Assembly (NCBI GenBank): GCA_902797695.1
Contig: CADBTW010000014.1
Coordinates: 1-33,195, forward strand
Source of the DNA: an uncultured Sutterellaceae bacterium
GTDB lineage: Bacteria > Pseudomonadota > Gammaproteobacteria > Burkholderiales > Burkholderiaceae_F
Length of the DNA stretch: 33,195 nucleotides
Direction: 5' to 3'
Shown here: positions 1-32,892 of the stretch, in pieces
Position numbering within the stretch: the stretch's first letter is position 1
How the letters are laid out: each line of letters begins with the position of its first letter
The notes under the pieces: model-generated
Told to the model about the DNA's origin: nothing
The model's input: only the letters and a program-made list of their open reading frames with translations
The model's database searches: none
Position numbers and translations under genes: made by a program

Positions 1-133
1 ATTGAGCGAAGGGAGCGGCTGCAGGTTTTCAAGAACACTGCAGAGCCAAGGATTTTGTCACTTGGTTATTTTCTTTCATAAAAAAAGTAACCGGAACAAT
101 CGTTTTGGTCCTGCTTTCAAAGGAGGTTTCTTT
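1..133 (+). promoter_or_regulatory. Leader region of the first trimeric autotransporter
   Basis: The segment upstream of the first autotransporter is AT-rich from about 55 to 120 and contains no gene. A strong Shine-Dalgarno (AAAGGAGG, about 119-126) sits 7 bases before the ATG at 134 and decides that start; the open frame itself continues upstream to the window edge. An imperfect inverted repeat (GGTTA near 65, GTAACC near 88) could form a hairpin in the leader. I could not assign -35 and -10 boxes with confidence. Confidence 0.5.
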
Positions 134-7286: not shown

Positions 7287-7294
7287 CGGGAAGC

Positions 7295-7339
7295 TCCCCG
7301 GGGCAGGCGCGAAGCCCCCTTCAAGCCTGCCCCCGGGGA
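7295..7339 (+). terminator. GC-rich hairpin after the dcuC relic
   Basis: TCCCCGGGGCAGGC (7295-7308) pairs with GCCTGCCCCCGGGGA (7325-7339) across a 16-base loop. There is no T-tract, so it may be a leftover or partly active terminator of the former dcuC transcript, upstream of the asparaginase gene. Confidence 0.5.
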
Positions 7340-7387: not shown

Positions 7388-8386
7388 ATGCAAAGACCAA
7401 AGGTAGCCATCTTCTCAACCGGTGGCACGATCGTGAGCTCGGCCGCGAGTTCGACCCAGCTCACGAACTATGCGATCAGGGATTTCACGCCCGAAGCGCT
7501 CCTCGCCTCAGTCCCCTCGATCTCTGATGTCGCCGAGATCGAGATCGTCCCCGTCGCGAACATCCCGTCAAGCTGCATCGACGAGGCGACCTGGGTGAAG
7601 CTCGCCCGCGCGATTGACGCCGCTCTCGCGCGGGACGAGGTCGCGGGCGCGGTCGTGACACACGGGACCGATACGATGGAGGAGACGGCGTACTTCCTCA
7701 ATCTCGTCCTCGAGACGCGGAAGCCCGTCGTCCTCACGGGCTCCATGCGGCCCTCTTCCGCCCTGTCGGCTGACGGTCCTCTAAATCTTTTGAACGCTGT
7801 CCGGGTCGCGGCGTGCCCAGGGGCCGCAGACCGCGGTATCCTCATCACCCTGAACGGGGTCATCAACGCGGCCCGCTCGACGATGAAGTCGAACTCGATC
7901 TCGGTCGAAACGTTCCGGGCGCCGGAGTACGGCGCGCTCGGGTTCGTGGTCGGGGACGAGGTCGAGTTCGTCACCCGGGTCGAGAAGCCCCACACGGCGG
8001 AGACCGAGTTTTCGCCTGACGACTTCTCCTCCGGGGCGCCGAGGGTCGACATCGTCCTCGCGCACGCGGGGGACGACGGGCTCTTCGTCCGGGCCGCGGT
8101 CGAAGCAGGCGCAGAGGGAATCGTCCACGCGGGATGCGGCCACGGAACCATCTCGAAGAAGATGGAAGCGGCGCTCTTCGACGCGGCTTCGAAGGGGGTC
8201 GTCGTGGTCCGGGCTTCCCGGACCCCGACCGGGCCCGTGCTCCGGAGCCTCGACCGGTGGAGCGACGCGGGGTTCATTCCGGCGGGGACGCTTTCGCCTC
8301 AGAAGGCCCGCGTGCTGCTGCAGCTCGCGCTCGCGAAGTACCCGGGCGACGCCGCGGAAGTGGCAAGGATTTTCAGGACTTACTAG
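7388..8386 (+). CDS. L-asparaginase (type II-like, without signal peptide)
   Basis: This 332-residue enzyme hydrolyses L-asparagine to aspartate and ammonia. The catalytic residues of the bacterial asparaginase family are all visible: T14 in TGGTI, Y28, T94 and D95 in HGTDTMEE, and K167 in AARSTMKSNS. The conserved GSMRPSSALSADGPLN stretch lies at 118-133. Its length fits the type II (AnsB) class, but no signal peptide precedes the TGGTI strand, so the enzyme should be cytoplasmic. The start at 7388 lacks a good Shine-Dalgarno, yet no other start precedes the catalytic motif in a plausible position. It is followed after 26 bases by an amidohydrolase with a strong ribosome-binding site, so the two form an operon. 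Aspartate made here could feed fumarate respiration, in line with the adjacent dcuC relic. Confidence 0.9.
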   Translation: MQRPKVAIFSTGGTIVSSAASSTQLTNYAIRDFTPEALLASVPSISDVAEIEIVPVANIPSSCIDEATWVKLARAIDAALARDEVAGAVVTHGTDTMEETAYFLNLVLETRKPVVLTGSMRPSSALSADGPLNLLNAVRVAACPGAADRGILITLNGVINAARSTMKSNSISVETFRAPEYGALGFVVGDEVEFVTRVEKPHTAETEFSPDDFSSGAPRVDIVLAHAGDDGLFVRAAVEAGAEGIVHAGCGHGTISKKMEAALFDAASKGVVVVRASRTPTGPVLRSLDRWSDAGFIPAGTLSPQKARVLLQLALAKYPGDAAEVARIFRTY

Positions 8387-8412: not shown

Positions 8413-9825
8413 ATGTTTGACCTGTTGCTGAAGGGCGCCCGCGTGGTCGACCCGGTGAATAACATTGACCGCGTCGCGGACGTCGCCGTTGAGGGCGGGA
8501 AGATCGCGGCGGTCGGGACCGGGCTCGCAGGCGAAGCCCGCGAGACCGTCGACCTCACGGGTCTCGTCCTCACCCCGGGCGTCATCGACCCGCACCTCCA
8601 CCTCGGGGCCGAGTTCGGCTCGCCCTACGGCCAGCGGATGACGGCCCTCTCCGGCGTCACCACCTGCCTCGACATGGCGGGTCCTGTCCGCTCCATCATC
8701 GAGGACACCCGCTCCTACGGCTGCGGGATCAACGTCGCGATGCTGGAAGGTTTCTCCCCGATGCGCCAGTTCGGGACCGAATCCCCGACCTCCGGGCAGA
8801 TGGGGAAGTGGATCGACGAGTCGCTCGACGCCGGCGCGATCGGCGTGAAGATCATGGGCGGCCACTGGCCTGTCGCGCTCGAGACCGAGCTTGAGCTCGT
8901 GCGGCTCGCGCCCCAGCACCACTCCTACGTCGCCTGGCACGCGGGCTCGAGCACCGCGGGCTCGAACATCAAGGGCGTCCGCGAGGTCGTGAACGGGATC
9001 GGGGACCTCCCGCTCCACCTCGCCCACATCAACGCATACTGCCGCGGCCGCGTGAACCCGGTGGTGGACGAAGCCGAAGAGGCGCTCAGCCTCCTGCGCG
9101 CGCACCCGAACATCTGGTGCGAGTCCTACATCAGCCCGCTGAACGGCACGATCCTCGCCTGCGACCTCTCCGACGGCCACTGCACGGACCACGTCACCTG
9201 CAACTGCCTCAGGACCTACGGGTTCTCGGAGGACATGAAGGGGATCGAGGGCGCGATCCTCGCCGGGAAGCTCTTCGTGATCCGCGACAACGGCACGGTG
9301 TCCGAGCTCCTCGAGGGGAAGGCGGCGCTTGATCACTGGAAGGCGAAGGGGACGAAGACCGCGGGCTCCTTCCCGGTGAACCCGGCCGCGTCCCGCTTCC
9401 TCATCGCGACCGCGAAGCGCGAGGACGGGTCCTTCGTCGTCGACTCCCTCTGCACGGACGGCGGCTGCATCCCGCGCAACGTCATCATCCCGATGGGGCT
9501 TTCGCTCGTCCGGTTCGGAGCCCTCACGCTCCCCGAATTCGTCGTGAAGGCCTCCGTCAACGCCGCGCGCCACCTGAGGCTCGTGAACAAGGGCCACCTC
9601 TCGGAAGGCGCCGACGCCGACATCACGGTGTTCGACTTCGACCGGCAGCAGGCGGTCTACACCTGGGTCGCCGGGCGCCGCGTGCTTGACCACGGGAAGC
9701 TCCTCCAGAAGGGCGCGAACTTCATCACGAGCGAACGCGGCCGCGCCGCGGTCGAGAAGGCCGGGTTCACCTCGACCGTCGTCTCGTTCGACACGCCGGA
9801 ACCCGCGCGCTTCATCGCGAAGTAG
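8413..9825 (+). CDS. Metal-dependent amidohydrolase (dihydroorotase/D-aminoacylase-like)
   Basis: A 470-residue member of the amidohydrolase superfamily, probably hydrolysing a C-N bond in an amide, cyclic imide or N-acyl compound. The metal site of the TIM-barrel fold is complete: H61 and H63 (DPHLHLG), a likely carboxylated lysine K146 (IGVKIMGG), H176 (WHAGSS), H202 or H205 (LHLAHIN) and D349 (CTDGG). The N-terminal beta-sandwich (LLLKGARVVDP) and the C-terminal part (EGADADITVFD) are typical of dihydroorotase, D-aminoacylase and isoaspartyl-dipeptidase groups. The ATG at 8413 is set by AAGGAG about 9 bases upstream. Its operon partner is an asparaginase, so the substrate may be an asparagine- or aspartate-derived amide, but that is inference. 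The exact activity cannot be named. Confidence 0.85.
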   Translation: MFDLLLKGARVVDPVNNIDRVADVAVEGGKIAAVGTGLAGEARETVDLTGLVLTPGVIDPHLHLGAEFGSPYGQRMTALSGVTTCLDMAGPVRSIIEDTRSYGCGINVAMLEGFSPMRQFGTESPTSGQMGKWIDESLDAGAIGVKIMGGHWPVALETELELVRLAPQHHSYVAWHAGSSTAGSNIKGVREVVNGIGDLPLHLAHINAYCRGRVNPVVDEAEEALSLLRAHPNIWCESYISPLNGTILACDLSDGHCTDHVTCNCLRTYGFSEDMKGIEGAILAGKLFVIRDNGTVSELLEGKAALDHWKAKGTKTAGSFPVNPAASRFLIATAKREDGSFVVDSLCTDGGCIPRNVIIPMGLSLVRFGALTLPEFVVKASVNAARHLRLVNKGHLSEGADADITVFDFDRQQAVYTWVAGRRVLDHGKLLQKGANFITSERGRAAVEKAGFTSTVVSFDTPEPARFIAK

Positions 9826-16348: not shown

Positions 16349-18508
16349 ATGAAAATGAAGACTCTTATCGCGGTCGCGGTCGCTGCGGCGGTGGCGCCCG
16401 CGATGGCGGCTACCTACACAGAGAGCGTCGCGGGCCACAACGGACCGGTCGCCGTTCAGGTCACGGTTGAAAAAGGCGTCGTGAAGGCTGTCAAGGTCCT
16501 GAAGAACCAGGAAACGAAGGGAATCGGGAGCAAGGCGATCGACGCGATCCCGGGCGCGATCGTGAAGGCCGGGAAGGCTGACGTCGCCGCGGTCACGGGC
16601 GCCACCGTCACGTCGAACGCCATCATGACCGCCGTGAAGTCCGCGGTCGCGAAGGATAAGAACGGCGGCAAGGCCGCGAAGGCCCTCCCCACCTACAAGC
16701 CCGGCACCTACAAGGCGAAGGCCTACGGCTCCAACGGCTGGGTGAATGTCGAGGTCACGGTGGACGAGCACCGGATCAAGGACATCAAGACGCCTGAGCT
16801 CCGCGAGACCCGCCTGATGGGCGGAATGGCGGTCGAGCGCCTAACCAGCGAAATCGAGAAGTACCAGACCCTTAATGTCGACAGCGTCTCGGGCGCCACC
16901 GTCACTTCCGCCGCCTTCAAGAAGGCGGTCGGCGACGCCGTGAAGCAGGCGGGCGGCGACCTCTCGCTCCTCCAGACCCCGGTCCCGAAGAAGCGCGCCC
17001 CGAAGGGCGTGAAGACCGAGAAGGCTGATCTCGTGATCGTCGGTTCCGGCGGCGCCGGGCTCGCGGCCGCGGTCACCGCGACCGAAGGCGCGAAGCGTAA
17101 GGTGATCGTGATCGAGAAGATGCCGGTGATCGGCGGGAACACGCTCCGCTGCGCCTCGGCCTTCAACGCGGCGGACCCGGCCCGCCAGGCGAAGCTCCCG
17201 ATGACGGACACCCTGAAGGACGCGGTCGTGAAGGCGATCAGCGAGAAGCCCGCGAACGCGGAGCACGCGAAGCTGATGGCGGACGTGAAGGAGAAGTACG
17301 AGGCTTATCTCAAGAGCGGCTCGAAGTCCCTCTTCGACTGCCCCGAGTGGCACGCCCTCCAGACCTACAACGGCGGCGACAAGGTCGGGAAGATCCCGCT
17401 CATCCGCACCTACGCCTTCCACGTGAAGGGAACGCTCGACTGGCTGCAGGGCCTCGGCGCCCCTGTCCGCGACCGCGTCTCCCAGGGCGCCGGCGCCCTC
17501 TGGCAGCGCACGCACCAGTTTGACGCCCCGGCCGGGAACGCCCTGATCGAGCCGCTCCTCAAGGCCGCGACGAAGCAGGGCGTGAAGATCATCACCGGCA
17601 TGAAGGCCGAGAGCCTCATCGTGAAGAACGGCAAGGTTGTCGGCGTCCGCGCGACCGACACGATCGGCGGGAAGTACGCGTTCAACTCGAAGAACGGCGT
17701 GATCCTCGCGACCGGCGGCTACTCGCAGAACAAGAAGATGCGCCAGGAGTCCTCCCCTGTCCTCACGCCTGACATGGTGTCGACGAACCAGCCCGGCGCG
17801 ACCGGGGACGGCATCGTCATGGCCCGGAGGATCGGCGCGGACACGACCGGCATGAACTATGTCCAGGTCTACCCGCTTGCCACCCCGGGCTCAGGCACGC
17901 TCCAGGGCCGCGCCCGCAAGATGTCCGGCCTTGACGACGTGATCGACGTGAACAAGAACGGCCAGCGCTTCGTGAAGGAAGACGCCCGCCGCGACGTGTT
18001 CGTCGCCGCGATCAAGAAGCAGCCCGGCGCGATGTGCTACGACATCAACGACAGCCAGATCGTCGAGAAGACCAACTCCTTCAACGAGGACATGGAGACG
18101 CTTGTCCAGATCGGCCGCATCTACAAGGCGGACACCCTCGCCGAGCTCGCGAAGAAGATCGGCGTCCCGCCGAAGAACCTCGAGGAGACCGTCGCCGAGT
18201 ACAACAAGCAGGTCGAGGCGAAGAACGATCCGAAGTTCGGCCGCAAGCTCTTCGATAAGAAGATCGAGAAGGGCCCGTTCTACGCGACCCCGCGCGCGCC
18301 GTCCATTCACCACACGATGGGCGGACTCCTGATCGACACCCATGCCCGCGTCCTCAATAAGCAGGGGAAGGTGATCAAGGGCCTCTACGCCGCGGGCGAA
18401 GTGACCGGCGGCATCCACGGCTCGAACCGCCTCGGCGGGAACGCGACCGCTGACGTGACGACCTTCGGCCGGATCGCGGCGAAGACCGCCCTTGGGCTGA
18501 AGGACTAA
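16349..18508 (+). CDS. Sec-exported flavoprotein reductase: two FMN-binding domains plus FAD fumarate-reductase-like domain
   Basis: A 719-residue periplasmic reductase of the flavocytochrome c/urocanate-reductase group. A Sec signal (LIAVAVAAAVAPAMA) comes first. Two tandem FMN-binding domains follow, each ending in the motif where FMN is covalently attached to threonine: VTGATVTS near 84 and VSGATVTS near 182. The FAD domain begins with ADLVIVGSGGAGLAAA near 230. Catalytic features of the family are present: GQRFVKEDARRD (arginine corresponding to the catalytic Arg402 of Shewanella FccA, near 547), IHHTMGG near 653 and GGIHGSNRLGGNA near 690. The Thr-Glu pair lining the FccA substrate pocket is not conserved (R-K at the corresponding places by my alignment), so the substrate is probably not plain fumarate. 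There is no CXXCH, so no heme. The ATG at 16349 follows GGAGAG. Electrons would reach it through the FMN domains from a membrane donor not encoded here. Confidence 0.88.
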   Translation: MKMKTLIAVAVAAAVAPAMAATYTESVAGHNGPVAVQVTVEKGVVKAVKVLKNQETKGIGSKAIDAIPGAIVKAGKADVAAVTGATVTSNAIMTAVKSAVAKDKNGGKAAKALPTYKPGTYKAKAYGSNGWVNVEVTVDEHRIKDIKTPELRETRLMGGMAVERLTSEIEKYQTLNVDSVSGATVTSAAFKKAVGDAVKQAGGDLSLLQTPVPKKRAPKGVKTEKADLVIVGSGGAGLAAAVTATEGAKRKVIVIEKMPVIGGNTLRCASAFNAADPARQAKLPMTDTLKDAVVKAISEKPANAEHAKLMADVKEKYEAYLKSGSKSLFDCPEWHALQTYNGGDKVGKIPLIRTYAFHVKGTLDWLQGLGAPVRDRVSQGAGALWQRTHQFDAPAGNALIEPLLKAATKQGVKIITGMKAESLIVKNGKVVGVRATDTIGGKYAFNSKNGVILATGGYSQNKKMRQESSPVLTPDMVSTNQPGATGDGIVMARRIGADTTGMNYVQVYPLATPGSGTLQGRARKMSGLDDVIDVNKNGQRFVKEDARRDVFVAAIKKQPGAMCYDINDSQIVEKTNSFNEDMETLVQIGRIYKADTLAELAKKIGVPPKNLEETVAEYNKQVEAKNDPKFGRKLFDKKIEKGPFYATPRAPSIHHTMGGLLIDTHARVLNKQGKVIKGLYAAGEVTGGIHGSNRLGGNATADVTTFGRIAAKTALGLKD

Positions 18509-20798: not shown

Positions 20799-22325
20799 CT
20801 AGGCGGGCTTGTAGGCCTTCGCCGTGCGGGCCGCAGTCCGCCCGAAGATCATGCAGTCCGCGACCGCGACGGTTCCGAGGCGCACCATGCCGTGCACGCC
20901 GCCGGTCGCCTCACCCGCAGCGTAGAGCCCCGGAATCACGTTCCCGCGGGCGTCCAGCACCTGCGCCTTGTTGTTGATCTCGAGCCCGCCCATGCAGTGG
21001 TGGACGCGCGGCCAGAGCCTCCAGCCGTAGAACGGCCCGTTCGCCTCGGTGTTCGGGACGCCGTCCTTGAAGAACTTGCAGTTGAAGTCCGGGTCCTTCA
21101 TCGCCTTCATGTAGCCGTTGAACTTCTCGTTCTGGGCCTGGAGGGCGTCGTACGGGATATTGTAGAAAGCGGCGAGTTCCTTCAGGGTCGCGAACTTGTG
21201 GACGACGCCCGACTTCTGGAGCTCGGCCCACATCTTTTCGGAGAGGTTCTTCCCGACCGCCTGGTTCATGATGTTCTTCTCGCACGCGTACATCACGACC
21301 GGATGCCCGATCGCGACGATTGCGTCGGCGCGCACCTTGCGGTTCCCGGTCTCCATCACGAACCGCTTCGCGGTCTTGGGGTCCACCATCGGCCCGTAGC
21401 CGACGAGGGGCTCCGTGAGAAGCGGGCAGAGGCCGAACCCCTGCTCGTCCGGGCTCGTCCAGGGCCCGAGCTGGATCCAGTCCATGTGGACCGTGTTCGC
21501 GCCGAGGAACTGGGCTTCCTGAATGCCTTCCCCGGTCGCGCCCGGGTGGTTCGTGGAGCCGAAGGCCGAGGTGAGGCGGGGATCGTGGCTCATCCGCATC
21601 TTCACGTTCTGGGCAAAGCCCCCGCAGGCGAGCATCACGCCCTTCTTCGAGCGGACGTACTTCACCTTCCCCGACTTTTCCTTCGGGAAGACGTAACCCT
21701 CGCGGATCTTCGCTCCGACCACGCGGCCCTTTTCGTCCTCGATCAGGGCTTCGAGATAGGTGCGCATGCGAATCGGGATCCCGTACTTTTCGCACACCTT
21801 CAGCATCGGCTCGATGAAGCCCGAGCCCTGGTGCGCCGTGTTCGAGTGGCTGCGCTTGACCGAGTGGCCGCCATGGTACGTGACCGCGGCGAACTTGACC
21901 CCGATCTTGTCGCGGAGCCAGTAGAAGTTCTCAACCGACTCGTCCGCGATGTGGCGTGCGAGGTCCGGGTGCGCGATGCCGCCGCCCGCCTTCAGGATGT
22001 CCCTGTAGAGGAGGTCCGCGGAATCCTTGATCCCGGCCTTTTCCTGCATGTCGGTGCCGGCTGCGGCGACGGCGCCCCCGTTGATCACGGAGTTTCCGCC
22101 CGGGAACGCCATCTTCTCGATCACGACGACGTTCTTCATTCCGAGCGTATGGGCTTCGATTGCGGAGGCGAGCCCCGCGAACCCGGTGCCGACGATGAGG
22201 TATTCGACCGTTTCGTCCCACTTGCGCGGGGCCTTCTCGGTGAGTGCGCCGGCCGCGCCCGGAACGAATGCCGCGGCTGAGGCCGCCGCTGCGCCAAGGA
22301 ACCCGCGGCGAGAAATGGATGCCAT
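20799..22325 (-). CDS. Tat-exported FAD-dependent reductase, flavocytochrome c-like
   Basis: A 508-residue periplasmic FAD reductase of the fumarate-reductase flavoprotein type, lacking FMN-binding and heme domains. The Tat signal (SRRGFLGAAAASAAA) fits export in folded form with FAD. The dinucleotide motif GTGFAGLASAIE is near 45. The family's active-site histidine pair is in VHHCMGGL (about 440). By gapless comparison with Shewanella FccA as remembered, the Thr-Glu of the substrate pocket (LLTEPLVG) and catalytic arginine (METGNRK) are conserved, but Arg381 of the proton relay becomes V. The usual HGANRLGGNA is altered to HGMVRLGTVA, keeping the arginine. A fumarate-like acceptor is possible but not certain. 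The ATG at 22325 has AGGAGG 8 bases upstream. It ends an operon with an unknown protein and a Tat-exported DUF169 protein, which may supply electrons or substrate. Confidence 0.88.
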   Translation of the reverse strand: MASISRRGFLGAAAASAAAFVPGAAGALTEKAPRKWDETVEYLIVGTGFAGLASAIEAHTLGMKNVVVIEKMAFPGGNSVINGGAVAAAGTDMQEKAGIKDSADLLYRDILKAGGGIAHPDLARHIADESVENFYWLRDKIGVKFAAVTYHGGHSVKRSHSNTAHQGSGFIEPMLKVCEKYGIPIRMRTYLEALIEDEKGRVVGAKIREGYVFPKEKSGKVKYVRSKKGVMLACGGFAQNVKMRMSHDPRLTSAFGSTNHPGATGEGIQEAQFLGANTVHMDWIQLGPWTSPDEQGFGLCPLLTEPLVGYGPMVDPKTAKRFVMETGNRKVRADAIVAIGHPVVMYACEKNIMNQAVGKNLSEKMWAELQKSGVVHKFATLKELAAFYNIPYDALQAQNEKFNGYMKAMKDPDFNCKFFKDGVPNTEANGPFYGWRLWPRVHHCMGGLEINNKAQVLDARGNVIPGLYAAGEATGGVHGMVRLGTVAVADCMIFGRTAARTAKAYKPA

Positions 22326-22411
22326 GATTCTTCCTCCTAGAAAAAACACCAATGCCCGCGCCTCTCTTCAGGCGCCGGCCCTGAATCCTTGAAAACTCTT
22401 TTAGCCCTGGA

Positions 22412-23056
22412 CTAGTACCAGTTCGCCCAGGCTTCCTTGATCGCCTCGGCAAAAGCGGTCTTCTCGTCCTGCGTGAGGGACGAGACCTCCTCCACCTTCG
22501 AAATGTCCCCGTTCGGGACCTCGTCCCCGAGGCAGTCGTTGATCGAGCGGGCGTTCGGGTAGGAGACCGGGTCGAAGAGCCTGAAGCTCACGATCTCGGG
22601 CGTCTTCTTGAACTTCGCGACCGCGATCGCGGGCCCCATCAGCTTCGTGTCGATCCGGTACATGCTGTCGATGTAGATGTCGCCCCAACCTTCCGGCAGG
22701 AACTTCCCCGAGACGCAGCCCTGACGGAGCTCCTCGGGGAGCGTCGCGTTGATGCGCTTCAGGAGCGCCCTCACCTCGTTCGCGTGCCGCACGTCGTCGT
22801 CGATCGTCTCGTCAGGCGAAAAGACCCAGCTCGAGGCGAGCGCGAGCGAAAGCGCGTTCCCGAGGACGTCCACCTCGTGCCGCGAAAGGCTCAAGGGGTA
22901 CGCAGGTTCGGGTTCCGGCGTTTCTTCCGGAAGCCTTCCCTCGATCCTGGCCTCGATTTCATCAAGGCTTTCGGGAGCCTTCTCTTCCGCTTCCCGCTCG
23001 GCCTTCATCTCCTCATACTCTTCGCTCGAGACCACTTCGATTCTCTTTCCCGCCAT
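22412..23056 (-). CDS. Conserved-looking 214-residue protein of unknown function in the DUF169-reductase operon
   Basis: I do not recognise this protein. It has no signal peptide, membrane segment or CXXC motif. The first 60 residues are acidic and charged (SSEEYEEMKAEREAEEK, then a proline-rich PEETPEPEPAYP linker), suggesting a flexible or helical arm. The rest is a compact, mixed helix-strand region rich in DE (SRHEVDVLGNALSLALA, PDETIDDDVRHANEVRALL). It lies between the Tat-exported DUF169 protein and the Tat-exported reductase on one strand, so it is probably co-expressed. Because both neighbours carry Tat signals and it does not, a Tat-substrate chaperone role, as dedicated chaperones of redox enzymes have, is an attractive but unproven inference. 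The start has GAGG a short distance upstream. Confidence 0.6.
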   Translation of the reverse strand: MAGKRIEVVSSEEYEEMKAEREAEEKAPESLDEIEARIEGRLPEETPEPEPAYPLSLSRHEVDVLGNALSLALASSWVFSPDETIDDDVRHANEVRALLKRINATLPEELRQGCVSGKFLPEGWGDIYIDSMYRIDTKLMGPAIAVAKFKKTPEIVSFRLFDPVSYPNARSINDCLGDEVPNGDISKVEEVSSLTQDEKTAFAEAIKEAWANWY

Positions 23057-23137
23057 AACCTCGGATCCTTTCTGTTCAAACCGCCAGGGCAGCCGGCCAG
23101 GCTGCCTGTATCGGGAAACCGCCTGAAGGGCGGCGGA

Positions 23138-23165
23138 GCCCCGGGGAAATCCCCTTCCCCGGGGC
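23138..23165 (-). other. 11-bp perfect hairpin between the DUF169 gene and the next ORF
   Basis: GCCCCGGGGAA (23138-23148) and TTCCCCGGGGC (23155-23165) form a perfect stem with a six-base loop in the 131-base gap of the operon. There is no T-tract, so it may set mRNA stability or partial attenuation. Confidence 0.6.
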
Positions 23166-23187
23166 CGTCACCGGCCGGGGGACGGCC

Positions 23188-24174
23188 TTACATGTTCTTC
23201 TTGTTCTCGGGAAGCGCGAAGGACGAGTTCTTGTCGATCATCTTCGCGAGGTTGTTCCAGTTCCGCATGCGGTTCCGGAGAATCGTCTGGTCCTTCTCGT
23301 TCGGGCGGAAGGAAATGAGCTTCCAGTCCATCTGGCGAAGCGCGAGGACGAGCTCGTCAAGCTTCTGGTAGGGAACCGCGATGATGGAGAGGCCCTTCGG
23401 GTAAACCTTGCGGCGGCCCATGCCGTGGTGGCAGCCGGTCTCGAAGTGGTTCACCTTCCCGGTGATCCAGGGGTGGACGTAGGTCCAGGCGCAGGAGATG
23501 ACGTTCGTAGAGATGGACTCCCACATGTCGCCCGAGATGTAGCTCGTCGCCCGGAGGACGATGTCCGTCATATCGGCGTCCCCGACGAAGATCACGAGGT
23601 CGGGGTTGAACTTGCACTGCTCGATCGGGGAGAAGATCACGTAGTTGCAGGTACCCTTGATGAGGCGCGGGATGTTGTAGTAGACGCGGGAGTTCGCAGC
23701 GTGCGAGCGGTAGCAGCCGAAGTCGAAGCCCGCCTGGCCCGAGGCGCCGATCGGCGGCTCGTCCCACATGCCGAGCACCATCTTGCCCATGCAGTTCTCG
23801 TTATCGATCGTCATGTAGAAGGCCTTGTTCGTCTTCTGCGCAATGCTCACGAACTGGCAGAGCGACTTCTTCTCGGTCGTGTGCGGATAGTCGAAGCCGA
23901 AGACCTTCGGGGGAACGGCGAGGAACTTGATCGCGATCGGGCGGTACGCGCAGGGGAGCGCGGCGAGCGTCCGGATCGCCTCGTCGGAGAGCCGGTCGCT
24001 ACGGATCCTGAGCTCCGCGGGAACGCCGTTATCCTGGAAGCGGCCGACCTTCGGGTCGATGTCCTGGTTCATCTGGGCGGAGGCGGTCCCGCTCATTGCG
24101 GCGCCTGCGGCGACCGCCGCCGTGCCGGCAGCGGCGTACTTGAGGAAATTGCGGCGCTGGATCTGGCTTGTCAT
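23188..24174 (-). CDS. Tat-exported DUF169 protein
   Basis: A 328-residue protein with a clear Tat signal (QRRNFLKYAAAGTAA, cleavage near ASA-QM) followed by a DUF169 domain, recognisable by ALPCAYRPIAIKFL and later segments such as CNYVIFSPIEQ and FETGCHHGMGRRKVYP. DUF169 proteins are widespread in anaerobes and have no established function. Eight cysteines are scattered through the mature part (LPCAY, KSLCQF, NENCMG, FDFGCYRS, KGTCNY, EQCKF, ISCAW, ETGCHHG), enough to bind a metal, cluster or substrate. Export through Tat suggests it folds with a cofactor. It leads the operon with an unknown protein and an FAD reductase, and faces two Crp/Fnr-like genes. The ATG has AGGAGA 8 bases upstream. 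Its function with the reductase is inferred, not shown. Confidence 0.75.
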   Translation of the reverse strand: MTSQIQRRNFLKYAAAGTAAVAAGAAMSGTASAQMNQDIDPKVGRFQDNGVPAELRIRSDRLSDEAIRTLAALPCAYRPIAIKFLAVPPKVFGFDYPHTTEKKSLCQFVSIAQKTNKAFYMTIDNENCMGKMVLGMWDEPPIGASGQAGFDFGCYRSHAANSRVYYNIPRLIKGTCNYVIFSPIEQCKFNPDLVIFVGDADMTDIVLRATSYISGDMWESISTNVISCAWTYVHPWITGKVNHFETGCHHGMGRRKVYPKGLSIIAVPYQKLDELVLALRQMDWKLISFRPNEKDQTILRNRMRNWNNLAKMIDKNSSFALPENKKNM

Positions 24175-24368
24175 GCTCTCTTCTCCTATTCTTCGCGGCC
24201 CTCGGGAAGGATGCGAGCCGAAACCTCACCTTCCGATGCCGCCCTGGGGTCCTTCTTCTGTTCCGCCCGGTGCTTCTTCTTACCCGCAGCCGAACGGTTT
24301 CTTTTCCTTGGGGAAATATGCCCTGTCTAGGCAGAAAGAACTAGGACATGCTTAATACCTTCGTTTAA

Positions 24369-24378
24369 GGGTTAACCC
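24369..24378. promoter_or_regulatory. GGGTTAACCC palindrome in the divergent promoter region
   Basis: A perfect 10-bp palindrome lies about midway between the divergent DUF169 operon and the first Crp/Fnr-like gene. An 8-bp palindrome, GGTATACC, follows at about 24,395-24,402 and could contain a -10 element. Both are candidate sites for the adjacent regulators. Confidence 0.4.
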
Positions 24379-24447
24379 GTTCCTTGCTTTTGTGGTATAC
24401 CATTGCCCGCAATCTTGTGCCTGAATACAAGGAGAAAACCGGAAGCC

Positions 24448-25296
24448 ATGCAGCCCGCCGTTTCATGGACCGCGAGCGTGAACGAGGCAATCGCCCGCAG
24501 AAGGGACTGCTGGGATGCGAGGCACCCGTCCGAAATCCCGGTGCTCCCCTTCGTCACGCACGCCCTGCATCCGGAGCTCGCTGCCCTCGTCCGGCGGATC
24601 GGCGTCAGGCGCCGGTACCGGGCGGGAAGCGCCTTCGTCCAAAAGGGGAGCCCCGTCTCGGACCTCGCGCTCCTCGAGAACGGGGTCTCCGCGAGGACGC
24701 TCGGCTCCGCCGGCAGGGCGATCGCGATTTCTCTTCCCGGCCGGATCGCGTTCGGGAACCTCAACTTCTTTTCGGGACAGCCCTGCTTCGGGAGCTACTA
24801 CGCGGTGACGGAATGCGAGCTCACGCTCGTGCCGCAAGAGCTCATGAGGCGGATCCTTGAACAGGACCCGGGGCTCTCATGGCTCCTCTGCACGCAGTTC
24901 GAGCTCGCGAGACAGTCGGACAGGCTCTCGCTCGCGATGCTTCCGCAGCTCCAGACGTCCGAACGGCTGAAGGCTTTCTTCCTCTCCTGGTGCGCGACGC
25001 TCGGGCACTTTGAAACCGATCCGGACGGGGCGCGCTGGATCTCGGCCCCCTCGCCTGTCGCGCGGCGCGAGATCTGCCGCGTCGTGAACGCGTCTGAGGT
25101 GTCGGTCAACCTCGAACTCGCCGCATGGCGCCGCTCTAGGGACCTCGAGTCCGCGCGGCGCTCGATCCGCGTGAAGCCTTCCCTCTTCGAACCGGTCTGG
25201 GACTGGATCCTCAGGGCTGAGGAACCGGGTGCCGTCAGCCGCAGCCGGACGCTTGAAGAGGCCCTTTCGGATTTTCTCGGAACGAAGGCGCCCTGA
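24448..25296 (+). CDS. Crp/Fnr-like regulator, first of a tandem pair
   Basis: A 282-residue protein with the outline of a Crp/Fnr-family regulator: an N-terminal cyclic-nucleotide-like beta-roll (ALVRRIGVRRRYRAGSAFVQ, then GNLNFFSGQPCFGSYYAVTE) and a dimer helix (LARQSDRLSLAMLPQLQTSE). The C-terminal region (PSPVARREICRVVNASEVSV) would contain the DNA-binding helices, though no textbook helix-turn-helix stands out. No Fnr-type cysteine set for an iron-sulfur cluster is visible. The ATG at 24448 is chosen over an upstream TTG; the ribosome-binding site spacing is imperfect. Its stop overlaps the start of a paralogue. It is divergent from the DUF169-reductase operon, which it probably regulates. 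Confidence 0.65.
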   Translation: MQPAVSWTASVNEAIARRRDCWDARHPSEIPVLPFVTHALHPELAALVRRIGVRRRYRAGSAFVQKGSPVSDLALLENGVSARTLGSAGRAIAISLPGRIAFGNLNFFSGQPCFGSYYAVTECELTLVPQELMRRILEQDPGLSWLLCTQFELARQSDRLSLAMLPQLQTSERLKAFFLSWCATLGHFETDPDGARWISAPSPVARREICRVVNASEVSVNLELAAWRRSRDLESARRSIRVKPSLFEPVWDWILRAEEPGAVSRSRTLEEALSDFLGTKAP

Positions 25297-26189
25297 TGAA
25301 AGCGGTGAGGAATGGCGCCGCGGATCTCGAGCTCCTTAAGCGCGCCTACCGGAACGACACCGCGTGGGACTGGAGGACCGGCCCGGTCGCGTCTGTCTTC
25401 CCCTATATTTCGCACCCGGTCCATGACCGGATCGTGCGGGCGATCCGGGAGCACGGGACAGAGGACAGCTTCCCGAAAGGCGCATACATCACGCCGCCCG
25501 ACGCGCCGATCGACCGGATCGTCCTCGTGCTTTCGGGGCTCGTCGCGCGCCAGGCGGGAAGCGAAACGGGCCCGATTGGGCTTGCCCCGGTGGGCCGTTT
25601 CGCCTGCGGGCACCTCAACTTCTTCACGCGGCACCCGGCGATCGGGAGCTACTACGCGCTTGTTCCCGCCCGGGTCGCGTCGTTGAGCCAAAAGCGCTTC
25701 AGGCGGCTCCTCGAAGAGGACCCGGAGCTCATGCGGACGTTCGCGCTGCAATGCGAGCTCTGCACGCTCTCCGACCGCTACGGTCTCGCGACGCTCTCGC
25801 TCCTCCGGGTCCGGGAGCGGATCTGCGCGTTCCTCATCGCCTGGGCCCGCACGTTCGGCCGGATCGCGAAGACCTCAACCGCGGATACCGGCTGGTTCAT
25901 CCTCCCGAGGCTCCCGGTCGACATCGCCTGCCGCGTCGTGAATTCGACCCCCGAATACGCGGACCGCGTGCTCGGCCCCTGGACAAAGGAAGGACTTGCC
26001 CTGCAACACGGCACCGAATTCGCGGTCCACTCGTCCGTCCTCCTCCCGACCTTCGCGTGGCTCACCCGGATGCGGGGCGGGACCCGGATGCATCTTCCGG
26101 ACCTCTTCCTCGAAACCGCCTTCTCGATTCCGGAAGAGAGCCCGGCGCCCCGCTGGCTCCCTGCACGGGTCTCCGAACCTCGCCCATAA
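25296..26189 (+). CDS. Crp/Fnr-like regulator, second of a tandem pair
   Basis: A 297-residue paralogue of the preceding gene, sharing the order of elements: CGHLNFFTRHPAIGSYYALV (about 104-123), LSDRYGLATLSLLRVRERIC with the dimer-helix pattern, and the DNA-binding-region phrase VDIACRVVNSTPEYADRV. The ATG overlaps the TGA of the first gene by one base (TGATG), so they are translationally coupled. Identity between the two seems low apart from these blocks, which suggests an old duplication. Two paralogues may act as a heterodimer or sense two ligands. The target is probably the divergent DUF169 operon; nothing in the sequence shows the effector. Confidence 0.6.
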   Translation: MKAVRNGAADLELLKRAYRNDTAWDWRTGPVASVFPYISHPVHDRIVRAIREHGTEDSFPKGAYITPPDAPIDRIVLVLSGLVARQAGSETGPIGLAPVGRFACGHLNFFTRHPAIGSYYALVPARVASLSQKRFRRLLEEDPELMRTFALQCELCTLSDRYGLATLSLLRVRERICAFLIAWARTFGRIAKTSTADTGWFILPRLPVDIACRVVNSTPEYADRVLGPWTKEGLALQHGTEFAVHSSVLLPTFAWLTRMRGGTRMHLPDLFLETAFSIPEESPAPRWLPARVSEPRP

Positions 26190-27312: not shown

Positions 27313-30300
27313 TTACCACTGGTAGCCGATTCCGCCCGAGACCCCGAAGTCGCCCTCGGTGTTCCCGGAACCCTCGACCTTGAAGACCCAGGAGCCGTTG
27401 TCGGAGATCGAGGAGATGCCGATCGCGAGCGCGCTCTCGCCCTTGAAGTAGCCGACGCCGGCACCGGCGAGGTTCTTCCCGGGGAGGTAGGCCTGCGGAA
27501 GCCCCGCCATCGCCATGGCGGAGGCGATCCCGCCGCGGGACTCGTCCTTCACGTCGTTCACCTGGTCGCCGAGGCGCTTCAGCGAGTTCTGGACGTTCCC
27601 GCCGAACTTCTTCAGCTGCGAGACGTTCACGGCATCGGTGTCCGCGGTGCCGGGCGCGACGTTATGGATCTGGTTCCCCGCCATGTCGACGTTGTTCTTC
27701 GTGATCTGCGGTCCGTTCTTGATCGTGAGGCCGTCGTTATTGATCACCGTGTCCCCGACCGTGACGCTCTTGTTCACCTGGATCGTGTCGATGTCGTGGA
27801 GATCGCGGGCGAGCGACACCTGGATCGCCTGGTTCCCGTTCGACGCGGTCGACTGCTTCGTCACGACGTTCCCGAGCTGCTTCACGACGGTCTTTCCGGC
27901 CGAATTCGTCTCGTAGGTCGTGTCACCGATCACGTTAAGGGTCGTCCCGGACTTCCTCTCGATCGCGGCTTCCGTCACGTCGTCCGCCTGGAAGGAGAGG
28001 TTTCCCGCCTCGGCGATCTGACCCTCGAGCCGCTTCAGCTGGGCGACGTTAACGGCGTCCGTGTCCTCGGTGCCGGCTGCGACGTTCGTGAGCTGGCGCG
28101 TGATGTCAGCCTCCTTGCTTCCGAAGGAAACCGCGCCGCCTGTTGCGACCCAGGCGGAGCCCGTTTCGGTCGAGGCCTGCTTCGTAAGCGGGTCGTAGCC
28201 CACCTTCCCGGCGGCGACCGTCGAGGTAGAGCCTGAGCCGATCGCGACAGAGCCTTCGGCGGACGCTGCCGCGCCGCTTCCGATCGCGACCGACTCCTTG
28301 CCGGAAGCGTTCGCCTTGTTCCCGACCGCGACCGCCTCATCGCCGGACGCCTGCGTATAGGTGCCGGCGGCGAGCGCGTGGTTCCCGGTCGCGCCGTCGT
28401 TCTTATAGTTGCTGCCCTCGGCGGTCTTGTCCTCGTCCGTCCCCTTCACGCTGTAGTAGTGCGTGAGCTGGGAGACGTTCGCGACGTCGGTTTCGCTCGT
28501 GCCCGCCTGGACGTTGTGGATCTGGTTCTTGTCGCCGTCGATATTGATGTCGCCGACCGTGACGTTCTTGTTCACCTGGATCGTATCGATGTCCTTGAGG
28601 TCCCGCGCGAGCTTGATCGCGATCTGGTCGGTGCCGTTCGAGACGGTCTCGATATTCTGGATCTTCTCGTCGTTCTTCTCGTAAGCGTACCCGACGATCT
28701 TCAGGGTGTTCCCGTTCTTCCTCTCGATCTTGTTCGCCTCGCCGTCGTCCCCCTGGAAGAAGAGGCTCGCATCGGCGATCTGGGTTCCGAGGTTGTCGGA
28801 CACCCGCTTCAGCTGGGCGACGTTCACGGCGTCGGTATCGTCAGTGCCTGCCGCGACGTGCATCAGCTGGCGCGTCACCTCCGTGTCGCCCGAACCGCTC
28901 CCGAAGGAGACGGCGGCGCCGGTCGAGGTCCAGATGGGTTTTGCCTTTTCCTCGTCGGTCAGGGCTTTCTTGGTGTTCTCGAGCGGATCCCAGCCGACCG
29001 TGCCCTTCGCGACGTCCGCGACCGACCCCTGGCCGATCGCGATGCCGCCCTCGACAGTTGCCTGAGCACCGGACCCGATCGCAACGCCGCCAGTTGCGGC
29101 CTCGCTAGCCGTGGCGCCGTTCCCGAGCGCGAGGGACTGGGCGGCGGAAGCGCTCGCCTTGTTCCCGACCGCGACCGCTTCTTCGCCGGATGCGGTCGTG
29201 TAGGTGCCGGCAGCCAGCGCGTGGTTCCCGGTCGCGCCGTCATTGTTGTAATTGCTCTTCTCGGCGTCCTTGTCCTCGTCCGCCGCCTTCACGCTGTAGT
29301 AGTGGGCCTTTTCCTTCCGGAGCTGGGAGACGTTCACGACGTCGTTATCCTCGACGCCCTCGTTCACGTTGTGGATGATCTTGTCGCCATCCTTGTTGAT
29401 CACGATGTCGCCGACCTTCACCGAGTCGTCGACCGTGATCGTGGTGATGTCGTGGAGGTTCTTCGAGAGCCGGACCTGGATCGCCTGGTTCCCGTTCGAG
29501 GCGACGGATTGAGAAGTGAGGACGTTCCCTTCCTTCTCGACCGTCGGCTTCCCGTCGTCCCCCTTCACGACGTCGCCGTTATCGTCCTTCTTGTAGGTCG
29601 TGTCGCCGACAACGTTGAGGGTCTGGCCCGATTCCCTGAGGATCGGATCAACCGTCGTGTCGTCCCCCTGGAAGTTGAGGGACTGGTAGCTCGTGATCTT
29701 CCCCTCGACCCGCCTCAGCTGGGCGACGTTCACGGCGTCCGTATCCAGCGTGCCGGCCGAGATGTTGTTGATCTGCCGCGTGATCGCGGTCTGCGTTACG
29801 TTCCCGTCCTTGTCCTTTTCCTCCGCCCTGCCGAAGGAAACGGCAGCGTTGGTCGAGGTCCAGACGTAGTTTGCCTTCTCCTCGTCAGTCAGCGCCTTGT
29901 CGGTGCCTTCAAGCGGATCGAACCCGACGATTCCCTTGTCGGCGCCGGATTTGGAATAAGTGCCGAAGACGATCGAGTCCTCTTTCCACGCGCCAGCCCC
30001 GGTTCCAAAAGCGATGGCGTTCGTGCCGGCTCCGGCGCCCGAACCGACCGCAACGCTCTGGTCACCGTAGGCACTAGAGCGAACGCCGATCGAAACCGCG
30101 GACTTGCCGGCGCCTGAACCCACGCCGACCGCGACGGCGGAATCGCCCCAGGCGCTCGTCTGCTTGCCGATCGACGTCGCGTTGTCAGCCACCGCGCCGG
30201 ATTGATTGCCAATCGCGGTCGAAGAGGGACTGTTCGCCACGGTCTGGTAGCCAACCGCCGTTCCGTTCGTGCCGTTTGTGACTGCACCCGAGCCGACAGC

Positions 30301-32892
30301 GGTTGAGTTCTCGTTAAGCGAATTCGCGCGGAACCCGAGCGCGGTCGCGTAGTTTCCGTTCTTCGTAATCGAATAGGCGCCGGCTGCGAGCGAATAGTCG
30401 CTTTGGGCGTGGGAACTGTACCCAAACGCCGAGGACTGGTTTGCGAGCGCCGAGGCGTCAGAACCGAAGGCTGAGGATTGCGTTCCGTAAGCGTCTGCCG
30501 TGTTGCCCATTGCGGTGGACTTGGACCCGCGGGCCTTCGCGATATACCCCACGGCAGTTGAGTCAGGGCCTTCAGAGTATGCATACGAACCAACGGCGGA
30601 TCCATTCGAAGAATTGGTCTGAGCATTCGAGCCGATTGCCGTGCTGTCGCTCCCGTTCGCCATGGAGGTATAGCCGACCGCGGTGCCGTCGGAACCATAG
30701 GACTTTGCCGCACTGCCGACAGCAGTTGACTGGTTGCCCCATGTCTGGGAGTCGTAGCCGAGAGCTGTGGCGTAGTCGCTGTACGAGTTGTTGTGCGCGC
30801 CGTAGCCGATTGCGGTGCTGTAGTCCGCGTCATCGTCTACGACGCCGCTTCCGATGCTTGTCGAGTAGGAAGCGCTTGAGCCGATGCTTCCGCCGCCGAT
30901 TGCGGTGGAATGGTCGGAGTAAGAACTGACCACTCCGTTCACGGCCGTCGAGTTGTTCGCCCCGGTGCTGACGGTCGCCCCGCGTCCGACCGCCGTGCCG
31001 TTGGTCGCGGATTGCAACACCGCGCCGCCGACGGCGACGGAAGAGCTGGAGTATGAACCGACGGAACCGCCCACATTAACGCCGGAATCCACGTTGGAGC
31101 CGATGGTTCCGCCGACCGAGGTGGAGTTCTGGGAGTTCTTGTGAACCCAGCCGTTCACGGCAACTGAATTCGCAGAGCCGCTGTCAACTCCGGACTGGTT
31201 CCCGATCGCGGTCGACTGCTTGGAGTCGCCCGCAACATAAGTGTGCGAGCCAAGGGCTGTCGACTGTTCGCCGTGGGCCATCGCGCCGGTTCCGTAAGCG
31301 GAGCCTTCCTTCGCGGCCTGGGCGGCGGAGCCGATTGCTGTTCCCTTCTCGCCCCAGACCGACGCGTCGGATCCCATCGCGACCGCATCGTCTGCCCAGG
31401 CGTTCGTGTTGGTGCCGATCGCGACCGAGCGGTTCCCGGCGGACGAGGTCTTCGCGTTGCCGCTATCGTCCATGTCCGGGATCAGCGCCTTGCTGGGGTC
31501 GTCCGTCACGACGCCGTTCGCGTCGACCATCTGGCCGTCCGCGTTCGTGCGGTACTTGGTCTTCTTCCCGCCGATCACTACCGCCTGGTCGCCGTAGGCG
31601 TTTGCGTCGCTCCCGACCGCAACGGAGCCGGCCCCTGATGCGTGGGTCCTGACGCCTGCGGCGAGGGCGTCAAGGCCGGTCGCGCCGTCGTTCTCATAGT
31701 TGCTGCCATCGGTCTGGTCCGTCGCGTTCACGCTGTAGTAGTGCGTCCGCGCGGCCTTCAGCTGGGCGACGTTCACGGCATCCCAGTCGTCAGTGCCCGC
31801 TGCGACATGCGTGATCTGGCGCGTCACGTTCGCAGCCCCCTTCCCGTCAGCGGTTCCGCCGACCGAGACGGCGCCGGTGGTCGAGGTCCAGACCGGGTCG
31901 TCGGTCTTCGTGGAATCAGTTCTTGTCCGGGGATCGTACCCGGGCCGTACGCCCGTATCTGACTTCGAGCCCTGGCCAAGCGCGACGCCGCCTTCAGCCG
32001 AGGCGACCGCCCCGATGCCGACCGCCGTGCTGTTCTCGGCGGTCGCCTTCGAATTCGTGCCGAGGGTCGTCGACCCGGTGCCGCTCGCCTCGGCGCCGTA
32101 GCCTGCGGCGAGTGAATTCTCAGCCGTCGCCTTGGAGCTTGAGCCGAGGGTCGTGGAATCCTTTCCTGTCGCCGCGGAATCCGCGCCGAGCGCCGTGCCG
32201 TTTTCGCCTGACACCTTGGAGTTCGGGCCGACAGCCGTGCCGTTCACGCCGTCACCGGTCACCTTGGCGCCCGGGCCGAGCGCAGCGCCCGTGCCGTCAG
32301 AGCCTGTCGGGTTCTTCGCGTCAACTGCGGAGTCGTGGCCGAGCGCGACGCTGTCGCCGTGCGCCGTCGCGTTGTCGCCGACCGCCGTGCTTTCCTTGCC
32401 TACGGCGTGGGCGTCGACGCCGACCGCCGTGCTCTGGTCGCCTTCAGCGTGGGAATTGTGGCCGGCCGCGGTGCTGTCCTTTCCTTCGGCGTTGGCCTGC
32501 TGGCCTCCGGCAAAACCGCTGTCCCCCGTGGCAGAGGACTGCTGGCCAATCGCAGTCGATCCCTTCCCGGTGGCCTCCGCATGGTCGCCATAGGCCGAGG
32601 ACCCCATGGAAGCCTTGGAGTTGTTGCCGACCGCAACCGACAGGTCGCTACCCGCCGATGCCTTGTCGCCGATCACAATGCTGTCAGAAGCAGAAGTGTT
32701 TCCATCGTTCGTGATGGTCACAGCGAGCGCCTGCCCCGAGAGGGCGAGCGCTGCGGCAGCCGCAAGCACGATGCCGCTTCTCCTTGCGGCCCTCGAATAG
32801 CTCCCGGTCTTCACTTTTGATTTTGTCAGTTCGTTCGCGACGACCAGACGACCGCGGACGCGGTTCCAGACGATTCTGTAGACGCGGTTCAT
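27313..32892 (-). CDS. Giant trimeric autotransporter adhesin (ESPR signal, YadA anchor)
   Basis: This 1,859-residue protein should form a long surface fibre. It opens with an extended signal region (MNRVYRIVWNRVRGRLVVA) and a hydrophobic core cut near residue 57 (ALA-VTI). A first head of 14-residue YadA-type repeats ends in a neck near 374 (DAVNVAQLKAARTHYYSVN). A second, 600-residue, serine-, glycine- and tyrosine-rich head reaches a neck near 1,054. Then come alternating modules: necks near 1,187, 1,355, 1,473, 1,615 and 1,755, short heads starting HYYSV and SNY.NDGATG..ALAAG, and stalks with FQGDD or FQADD and INKDG or INIDG. The YadA anchor ends in GGIGYQW with a terminal W, as expected. 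GGAGGAGGGG precedes the start. The repeats are the main risk for assembly. A TpgA-like lipoprotein gene follows. The ligand is unknown. Confidence 0.93.
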   Translation of the reverse strand: MNRVYRIVWNRVRGRLVVANELTKSKVKTGSYSRAARRSGIVLAAAAALALSGQALAVTITNDGNTSASDSIVIGDKASAGSDLSVAVGNNSKASMGSSAYGDHAEATGKGSTAIGQQSSATGDSGFAGGQQANAEGKDSTAAGHNSHAEGDQSTAVGVDAHAVGKESTAVGDNATAHGDSVALGHDSAVDAKNPTGSDGTGAALGPGAKVTGDGVNGTAVGPNSKVSGENGTALGADSAATGKDSTTLGSSSKATAENSLAAGYGAEASGTGSTTLGTNSKATAENSTAVGIGAVASAEGGVALGQGSKSDTGVRPGYDPRTRTDSTKTDDPVWTSTTGAVSVGGTADGKGAANVTRQITHVAAGTDDWDAVNVAQLKAARTHYYSVNATDQTDGSNYENDGATGLDALAAGVRTHASGAGSVAVGSDANAYGDQAVVIGGKKTKYRTNADGQMVDANGVVTDDPSKALIPDMDDSGNAKTSSAGNRSVAIGTNTNAWADDAVAMGSDASVWGEKGTAIGSAAQAAKEGSAYGTGAMAHGEQSTALGSHTYVAGDSKQSTAIGNQSGVDSGSANSVAVNGWVHKNSQNSTSVGGTIGSNVDSGVNVGGSVGSYSSSSVAVGGAVLQSATNGTAVGRGATVSTGANNSTAVNGVVSSYSDHSTAIGGGSIGSSASYSTSIGSGVVDDDADYSTAIGYGAHNNSYSDYATALGYDSQTWGNQSTAVGSAAKSYGSDGTAVGYTSMANGSDSTAIGSNAQTNSSNGSAVGSYAYSEGPDSTAVGYIAKARGSKSTAMGNTADAYGTQSSAFGSDASALANQSSAFGYSSHAQSDYSLAAGAYSITKNGNYATALGFRANSLNENSTAVGSGAVTNGTNGTAVGYQTVANSPSSTAIGNQSGAVADNATSIGKQTSAWGDSAVAVGVGSGAGKSAVSIGVRSSAYGDQSVAVGSGAGAGTNAIAFGTGAGAWKEDSIVFGTYSKSGADKGIVGFDPLEGTDKALTDEEKANYVWTSTNAAVSFGRAEEKDKDGNVTQTAITRQINNISAGTLDTDAVNVAQLRRVEGKITSYQSLNFQGDDTTVDPILRESGQTLNVVGDTTYKKDDNGDVVKGDDGKPTVEKEGNVLTSQSVASNGNQAIQVRLSKNLHDITTITVDDSVKVGDIVINKDGDKIIHNVNEGVEDNDVVNVSQLRKEKAHYYSVKAADEDKDAEKSNYNNDGATGNHALAAGTYTTASGEEAVAVGNKASASAAQSLALGNGATASEAATGGVAIGSGAQATVEGGIAIGQGSVADVAKGTVGWDPLENTKKALTDEEKAKPIWTSTGAAVSFGSGSGDTEVTRQLMHVAAGTDDTDAVNVAQLKRVSDNLGTQIADASLFFQGDDGEANKIERKNGNTLKIVGYAYEKNDEKIQNIETVSNGTDQIAIKLARDLKDIDTIQVNKNVTVGDINIDGDKNQIHNVQAGTSETDVANVSQLTHYYSVKGTDEDKTAEGSNYKNDGATGNHALAAGTYTQASGDEAVAVGNKANASGKESVAIGSGAAASAEGSVAIGSGSTSTVAAGKVGYDPLTKQASTETGSAWVATGGAVSFGSKEADITRQLTNVAAGTEDTDAVNVAQLKRLEGQIAEAGNLSFQADDVTEAAIERKSGTTLNVIGDTTYETNSAGKTVVKQLGNVVTKQSTASNGNQAIQVSLARDLHDIDTIQVNKSVTVGDTVINNDGLTIKNGPQITKNNVDMAGNQIHNVAPGTADTDAVNVSQLKKFGGNVQNSLKRLGDQVNDVKDESRGGIASAMAMAGLPQAYLPGKNLAGAGVGYFKGESALAIGISSISDNGSWVFKVEGSGNTEGDFGVSGGIGYQW
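28377..28440 (-). repeat. Head/stalk module repeat within the giant adhesin, copy C
   Basis: This segment, encoding the HYYSVKGTDED, SNYKNDGATG and HALAAGTY block, repeats almost exactly in meaning at about 29,221-29,300 and more divergently at about 31,681-31,745. The shared DNA includes the phrase GTGGTTCCCGGTCGCGCCGTC in parts, showing internal duplication. Confidence 0.6.

Follow-up and report, generated by a model that had tools for sequence, protein, structure and literature searches.

A putative Crp-controlled periplasmic flavin reductase with rare DUF169 and P0002 neighbors in an uncultured Sutterellaceae bacterium

We examined a five-gene locus in a stretch of 33,195 nucleotides from an uncultured Sutterellaceae bacterium (contig CADBTW010000014.1 of assembly GCA_902797695.1). 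This stretch, which we call the window, spans the whole of contig C14; the genome has 2.3 Mb in 104 contigs and is 94% complete. A preliminary description had viewed the locus as a candidate new periplasmic reductase system: two proteins exported by twin-arginine translocation (Tat), namely a DUF169 protein and a flavin adenine dinucleotide (FAD) reductase, with an unknown protein encoded between them and a divergent pair of regulators. All five of its reading frames are present where it placed them, and the two regulator genes do overlap, by one base at position 25296. The genes of the locus are more than chance, since other genomes have homologs of the reductase, of the DUF169 protein, of P0002, and of the regulators. 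The locus contains:

20799-22325, minus strand: P0001, an FAD reductase of the flavocytochrome-c family (TIGR01813) with a twin-arginine motif, from the Sutterellaceae GMVRLGTV clade
22412-23056, minus strand: P0002, 214 amino acids, without a family, whose homolog in Duodenibacillus (44% identity) is near the same genes
23057-23187, minus strand: gap between the DUF169 gene and P0002, with a GC-rich hairpin but no U run
23188-24174, minus strand: P0003, a Tat-type DUF169 (PF02596) protein
24175-24447: divergent intergenic region of 273 bases, with the palindromes GGGTTAACCC and TGGTATACCA
24448-25296, plus strand: P0004, a Crp/Fnr-type regulator (cNMP_binding, 33.3 bits)
25296-26189, plus strand: P0005, a second Crp/Fnr-type regulator, which overlaps P0004 by one base and is 31% identical to it

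P0001 belongs to the FAD_binding_2 family of Pfam and to the flavocytochrome c subfamily of NCBIfam (TIGR01813; 443.8 bits, with a cut-off of 285.45). In a pairwise alignment to a solved flavocytochrome, we see both of the substitutions that the preliminary description had reported: V308 stands at the position of Arg381 of Fcc3, and MVRLGTV replaces ANRLGGN. R329 and E305 align with R402 and E378 of Fcc3. H443 and R482 align with what we take to be H504 and R544, and a threonine stands in place of what is presumably G547. So, the proton relay of Fcc3 (R402-E378-R381) is incomplete in P0001: R329 and E305 are present, but V308 replaces R381. P0001 has the same FAD domain as FccA/Fcc3 and keeps the equivalents of R402, E378, H504, and R544, but it has no CxxCH motifs, and in our tree (see below) it groups apart from FccA and from two FccA-like paralogs.

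The nearest relative of P0001 with a solved structure is urocanate reductase (UrdA, PDB 6t85; E = 5.2e-77). According to excerpts of a study of UrdA (PMC10882135), this enzyme likewise does not have the Fcc3 proton relay, so the loss of the relay is not unique to P0001. In the same excerpts, Arg411 of UrdA acts as the acid, and the carboxylate is contacted by His520, Arg560, and Arg411. P0001 keeps the acid arginine and the carboxylate-holding histidine and arginine. It differs from UrdA in that FMN_bind (PF04205) is absent among its Pfam matches and in that it lies on another branch of the tree, where the placement of UrdA is weakly supported (81/60). Because R329, H443, and R482 are kept, it is likely, judging from these residues, that P0001 reduces an unsaturated acid.

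The substitutions in P0001 recur across the family. Among the 67 Sutterellaceae genomes that we compared, 27 contain a DNA pattern for GMVRLGTVA, including 5 of 5 from the bacterium's own genus; a reversed control pattern had no matches. In a sample of 399 genomes from the order, the pattern is found in seven, and all seven are from this family. We selected loci by the GMVRLGTV pattern, so that motif is present in them by construction, but the Arg381 column was free to vary. Of 23 loci, 21 have V there, the other two (L047 and L051) have L, and none has R; the split reading frames of the 24th locus (L033) are outside of this read-out. In the paralogs from the bacterium's own genome, R is found in 2 of 41 frames (from 40 stretches that were taken from a longer list). 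MAFFT shifted the window's insert near the Arg381 column, and our call rests on the pairwise alignment, the tree, and a direct read-out.

The orthologs of P0001 are 63-80% identical to it. In a tree of 32 sequences, which include nine orthologs and 19 of the 41 own-genome paralog frames, the window's copy and the nine orthologs form one group (support 100/100), and the window's copy clusters with two copies from its own genus. Seven other reductases from the window's genome join this ortholog group in a larger one (100/99). We did not see P0001 group with FccA, which instead joins the paralogs L070 and L071 (100/99) in a different clade. We conclude from these comparisons that the V and MVRLGTV substitutions mark a Sutterellaceae clade. 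The simplest reading of the tree is that the reductase is native to Sutterellaceae and vertically inherited.

The reductase also has usual neighbors. We took the neighborhoods of 24 of the 28 motif sites, including the window (the sites in G059, G060, G061, and G064 were left out), and we counted neighbors in the 20 loci that have flanks of 3 kb or more on each side, again including the window. Within 3 kb of the reductase, there is a Crp-like regulator at 13 of 20 loci, a porin at 13 of 20, and a small open reading frame (ORF) with at least three CxxCH motifs at 16 of 20. Two of these small ORFs were scanned against Pfam, and both are Cytochrom_c3_2. So, a reductase with a Crp-like regulator, a porin, and a small multiheme-type ORF is a known layout. 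The pairing of a flavoprotein with a cytochrome in the ortholog group resembles Mrd/Mcc of Geobacter sulfurreducens AM-1, which the portions of the report available to us (PMC4427408) describe as a periplasmic flavin reductase and a multiheme cytochrome c that are encoded in one operon and that reduce methacrylate and acrylate. The window differs from Mrd/Mcc (which we compared by its description, not by alignment) in that no cytochrome gene is within 3 kb, even though most of the ortholog loci have one, and in that DUF169, P0002, and two Crp-like regulators are present.

The bacterium's genome contains 54 FAD_binding_2 match rows, some of which are fragments of one gene. It also contains 14 matches to Cytochrom_c3_2, on contigs C1, C6, C35, C38, C45, C48, C52, C55, C61, C81, C88, and C95. 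Each of these twelve contigs has FAD_binding_2 matches as well, which suggests that the genome encodes many flavoprotein-cytochrome pairs.

P0003 is 328 residues long and matches DUF169 (PF02596, COG2043) with 99.0 bits (E = 4.4e-28; the gathering cut-off is 27). To our knowledge, no chemistry is known for DUF169. A profile search of solved structures gave no match for it up to E = 10. The preliminary description had Tat export for both P0003 and P0001. For P0003, the Pfam TAT signal exceeds its cut-off; for P0001, the twin-arginine stretch SRRGFLG is visible by eye but the Pfam TAT score is below the cut-off (15.3 bits versus 22.7). P0003 does have the eight cysteines that were taken as a hint of a cofactor. 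However, the three Sutterellaceae homologs all share just four of these (C106, C128, C187, and C228), six DUF169 proteins that were compared all share just C128 and C228, and we did not find a known cofactor site. P0003 shares the profile match and these two cysteines with other DUF169 proteins, but it is longer and has a Tat signal: three members from other families have about 260-275 residues and, in the alignment, no Tat signal at the start.

Homologs of the P0003 type are found in 3 of the 67 family genomes. More broadly, DUF169 is found in 11 of 398 genomes from the phylum and in 32 of 399 from the order; the bacterium's own genome is in both of these counts, and a Duodenibacillus genome (G019) is in the latter. 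In a search of the class, the P0003 type was found only in the bacterium's own genome (1 of 369). A scan of genome contigs gave two DUF169 loci, both from this family. Among plasmids, P0003 had no matches, and there was one Cupriavidus record for another DUF169.

The preliminary description suggested asking whether DUF169 co-occurs with flavoprotein reductases. Outside of the family it seldom does: a homolog of flavin reductases (L146, 26% identical to FccA) is present in 1 of 25 neighborhoods, so we rejected the idea that DUF169 is a general partner of flavin reductases. These neighborhoods represent 20 of 30 non-family matches from the order and 5 of 10 from the phylum, and are from 4.6 to 15 kb long, with some cut by a contig end; in two of them (L135 and L154), BLAST failed to find the DUF169 gene again. 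A Tat-like motif was flagged in 4 of the 23 DUF169 proteins that were found again (L145, L153, L067, and L068). We take these to be over-long frames with extra sequence before the DUF169 match. In other bacteria, the neighbors of DUF169 include acetamidase-like genes (by eye) and genes annotated as acyl-CoA ligases. In the literature as sampled, DUF169 or COG2043 did not appear in titles or abstracts, and otherwise DUF169 turned up as a table entry or in comments on gene neighbors; we found nothing direct on Sutterella reductases. The one phenotype that we found is such a table entry, where disruption of a Desulfovibrio DUF169 gene gave high fitness under nitrate (PMC4001038, seen as an excerpt).

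P0002 lies between the two exported proteins, and it is indeed an unknown protein: it matches no family in Pfam or NCBIfam, with two sub-cut-off matches in Pfam (E = 0.04). A profile search of solved structures gave two matches, of which the best is to the alpha subunit of RNA polymerase (E = 0.096), and we do not accept these as real. No signal peptide is seen by eye, and P0002 is probably cytosolic. It has homologs in two of the 67 family genomes, along with one borderline match (E = 8.5e-4 over 54 residues). Given 27 genomes with the reductase motif, three with DUF169, and two or so with P0002, the idea of a fixed three-gene system is less well supported.

However, these genes do occur together in another genus. 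In Duodenibacillus G019, homologs of the DUF169 gene, P0002, the reductase, and the regulator all lie within about 9 kb, though arranged differently and divided between the two strands. First comes another reductase, followed by the ortholog of the reductase (65% identity), a protein of the AcnX (aconitase X) family, P0002 (44-47%), a porin, DUF169 (65-67%, with a twin-arginine motif by eye), and a divergent regulator (36% identical to P0004). A small ORF with at least three CxxCH motifs is 91 bases from the reductase ortholog. The AcnX-family protein (L008:5702-7135; E = 2.6e-80) has a twin-arginine stretch by eye, and its best NCBIfam match is to cis-3-hydroxyproline dehydratase (134 bits, with a cut-off of 700). 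AcnX is found in 3 of the 67 family genomes. So, the gene set of the preliminary description does recur in one other Sutterellaceae genome, although in a different order, and it is not the case that the genes are never adjacent in relatives, although the set is rare. The third DUF169 homolog is in a metagenome-assembled genome of Sutterella (G055, 79% complete), where it lies near a lactate-type transporter of the major facilitator superfamily, a porin, an amidohydrolase, and a DcuC-type carrier.

Both regulators appear to have a cNMP-binding domain. P0004 is above the Pfam cut-off of 27.5 bits for cNMP binding, and P0005 is just below it (26.3 bits). For the Crp-type helix-turn-helix, P0004 scores 13.3 bits with a cut-off of 27, and no match is listed for P0005. 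FNR senses oxygen with a cluster of cysteines near its N-terminus. Such a cluster is absent here, as P0004 has one cysteine before residue 113 and P0005 has none before residue 104. The tandem pair is found once more in the genome (L112:4983-7784 on contig C66; 56% and 59% identity), where it is divergent from an exported hydrolase-like protein that has RRSFLLL and a lipobox-like stretch by eye. The pattern GNLNFF...G.Y.A in the ligand domain is found in 7 of 14 family regulators beyond the window's pair and the C66 copies, and was not found in the other seven. We rejected a shared operator because perfect dyads are common to the loci no more often than in shuffled sequences. The motif AACCC[CT]TA is present in 4 of 23 upstream regions, versus a mean of 0.5 and a maximum of 3 in block shuffles, but it was picked after looking, looser forms are within the range of the shuffles, and the four regions are those of the window, two near-identical relatives from its own genus, and one other. 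As an operator motif it is a weak lead.

The three minus-strand genes had been described as one operon with a shared terminator. The three genes may plausibly form one operon; the gaps are 131 bases (DUF169 to P0002) and 86 bases (P0002 to the reductase), and there is a hairpin in the first gap (z = -1.95, versus -2.56 for the second gap). The evidence for the terminator is weak. There are four terminator-like sites, versus a mean of 5.7 in shuffles; one of these is about 200 bases beyond the reductase's stop codon on the same strand (20601-20588), and the hairpin directly behind the stop codon has z = -1.17.

On balance, we think that this locus probably encodes a periplasmic respiratory flavin reductase of a known kind, under Crp-type control, with an added and rare DUF169/P0002 pair. 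A native Sutterellaceae reductase of the flavocytochrome-c or methacrylate-reductase kind would have been in place first, and would then have gained the DUF169 gene and P0002 between itself and its regulator. The Crp-like regulator would sense a small ligand and turn on the divergent genes. The reductase would fold with FAD and then be exported by Tat. Electrons may reach it from a small periplasmic multiheme cytochrome c that is encoded elsewhere in the genome, and it would then reduce an unsaturated carboxylic acid at its C=C bond: FAD would supply the hydride and Arg329 the proton, while His443 and Arg482 grip the carboxylate. The DUF169 protein would be exported to the periplasm as well, where our guess is that it handles or prepares the acceptor. 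P0002 might help DUF169 to fold or to be loaded before export, which is also a guess. In the preliminary description, the set was a regulated respiratory reductase for an acceptor not yet known. This is well supported, but not as a new system, given that the reductase is of a known kind and that its substitutions are found across a clade.

The layout in close relatives is consistent with the DUF169/P0002 pair being an addition. In two of the four own-genus relatives (G045 and G046), regulator and reductase are immediate neighbors in divergent orientation, and DUF169 is absent. So, in the window, the space between these two genes is taken by the DUF169 gene and P0002. The pair looks like an accessory that was recruited to an existing reductase, and this rare accessory, of a Tat-type DUF169 and P0002, is the unusual part of the locus.

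Several observations weigh against our proposal. No cytochrome-type ORF (with at least three CxxCH motifs) is within 3 kb of the window's reductase, and none of the genome's 14 Cytochrom_c3_2 matches (13 of which are above the cut-off) is on the window's contig. DUF169 is missing from 25 of the 27 genomes that have the reductase motif, which means that the reductase can do without it. The regulator pair is not specific to the reductase, since it is also beside another exported enzyme on C66. In the own-genus relative G044, the regulator and a porin are upstream of the reductase on the same strand, and in G047, we did not find a regulator within 3 kb. Finally, the DUF169 of the Sutterella genome has no twin-arginine motif in the three forward frames that we read upstream, and we found no reductase motif and no P0002 in that genome, which is 79% complete.

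The DUF169 gene and P0002 could instead have landed beside a resident reductase by chance and have an unrelated function. The rarity of DUF169, the scarcity of flavin reductases near DUF169 outside of the family, and the Sutterella DUF169 with neither partner found are as this would predict. We nevertheless find it doubtful, as four types of genes cluster in two genera with different orders, and chance is unlikely to give such clustering.

It is unlikely, in our view, that the locus encodes a two-step periplasmic pathway, in which an exported enzyme (DUF169 here and AcnX in Duodenibacillus) would make the unsaturated acceptor for the reductase. The AcnX-family protein sits between the reductase ortholog and the genes for P0002 and DUF169; characterized AcnX enzymes are dehydratases, according to excerpts of the literature; and DUF169 in other bacteria is near apparent catabolic genes (the acetamidase-like and acyl-CoA ligase genes mentioned above). 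But the AcnX protein has no TAT match in Pfam, AcnX was not found in the window's genome (94% complete), the AcnX arrangement is in one genome only, and we know of no chemistry for DUF169. We consider it a long shot that a Tat-exported DUF169, matured with the help of P0002 before export, makes or activates the acceptor that the reductase respires, and that AcnX adds to this first step, or takes its place, in Duodenibacillus.

A dedicated three-protein reductase, in which DUF169 would be a cofactor-bearing partner or an electron donor that replaces the cytochrome, would fit with the twin-arginine motifs on both exported proteins, the lack of a local cytochrome, and the co-occurrence in a second genus, but it is quite unlikely, because Duodenibacillus has both DUF169 and a CxxCH-rich ORF beside its reductase (so DUF169 is not a simple substitute for the cytochrome), 25 of the 27 genomes with the motif have no such DUF169, and just two cysteines are invariant in six DUF169 proteins with no known cofactor site found.

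Elsewhere in the window, a second flavin reductase (16352-18508, plus strand) has two FMN_bind stretches, which is a UrdA-like domain layout; the tree places it with two other reductases from the same genome and not with UrdA. Part of a DcuC-type carrier gene, truncated and spread over more than one frame, is at about 6815-7330 (plus strand), just ahead of a type II asparaginase (7388-8386) and then an amidohydrolase (8413-9825). This amidohydrolase is 43% identical to the one in the Sutterella genome that sits with a DcuC-type gene near DUF169. The long repetitive surface proteins at 2-1978 (plus strand) and 27313-32892 (minus strand) presumably resemble trimeric autotransporters of the YadA type.

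These results place one of the many unassigned flavin reductases of gut Sutterellaceae in a defined clade, together with the partners that it usually has, so that an assay of one representative could serve for the group. Similarly, the uncharacterized DUF169 family gains a likely compartment (the periplasm, by way of Tat) and common neighbors in two genera, which makes its function testable.

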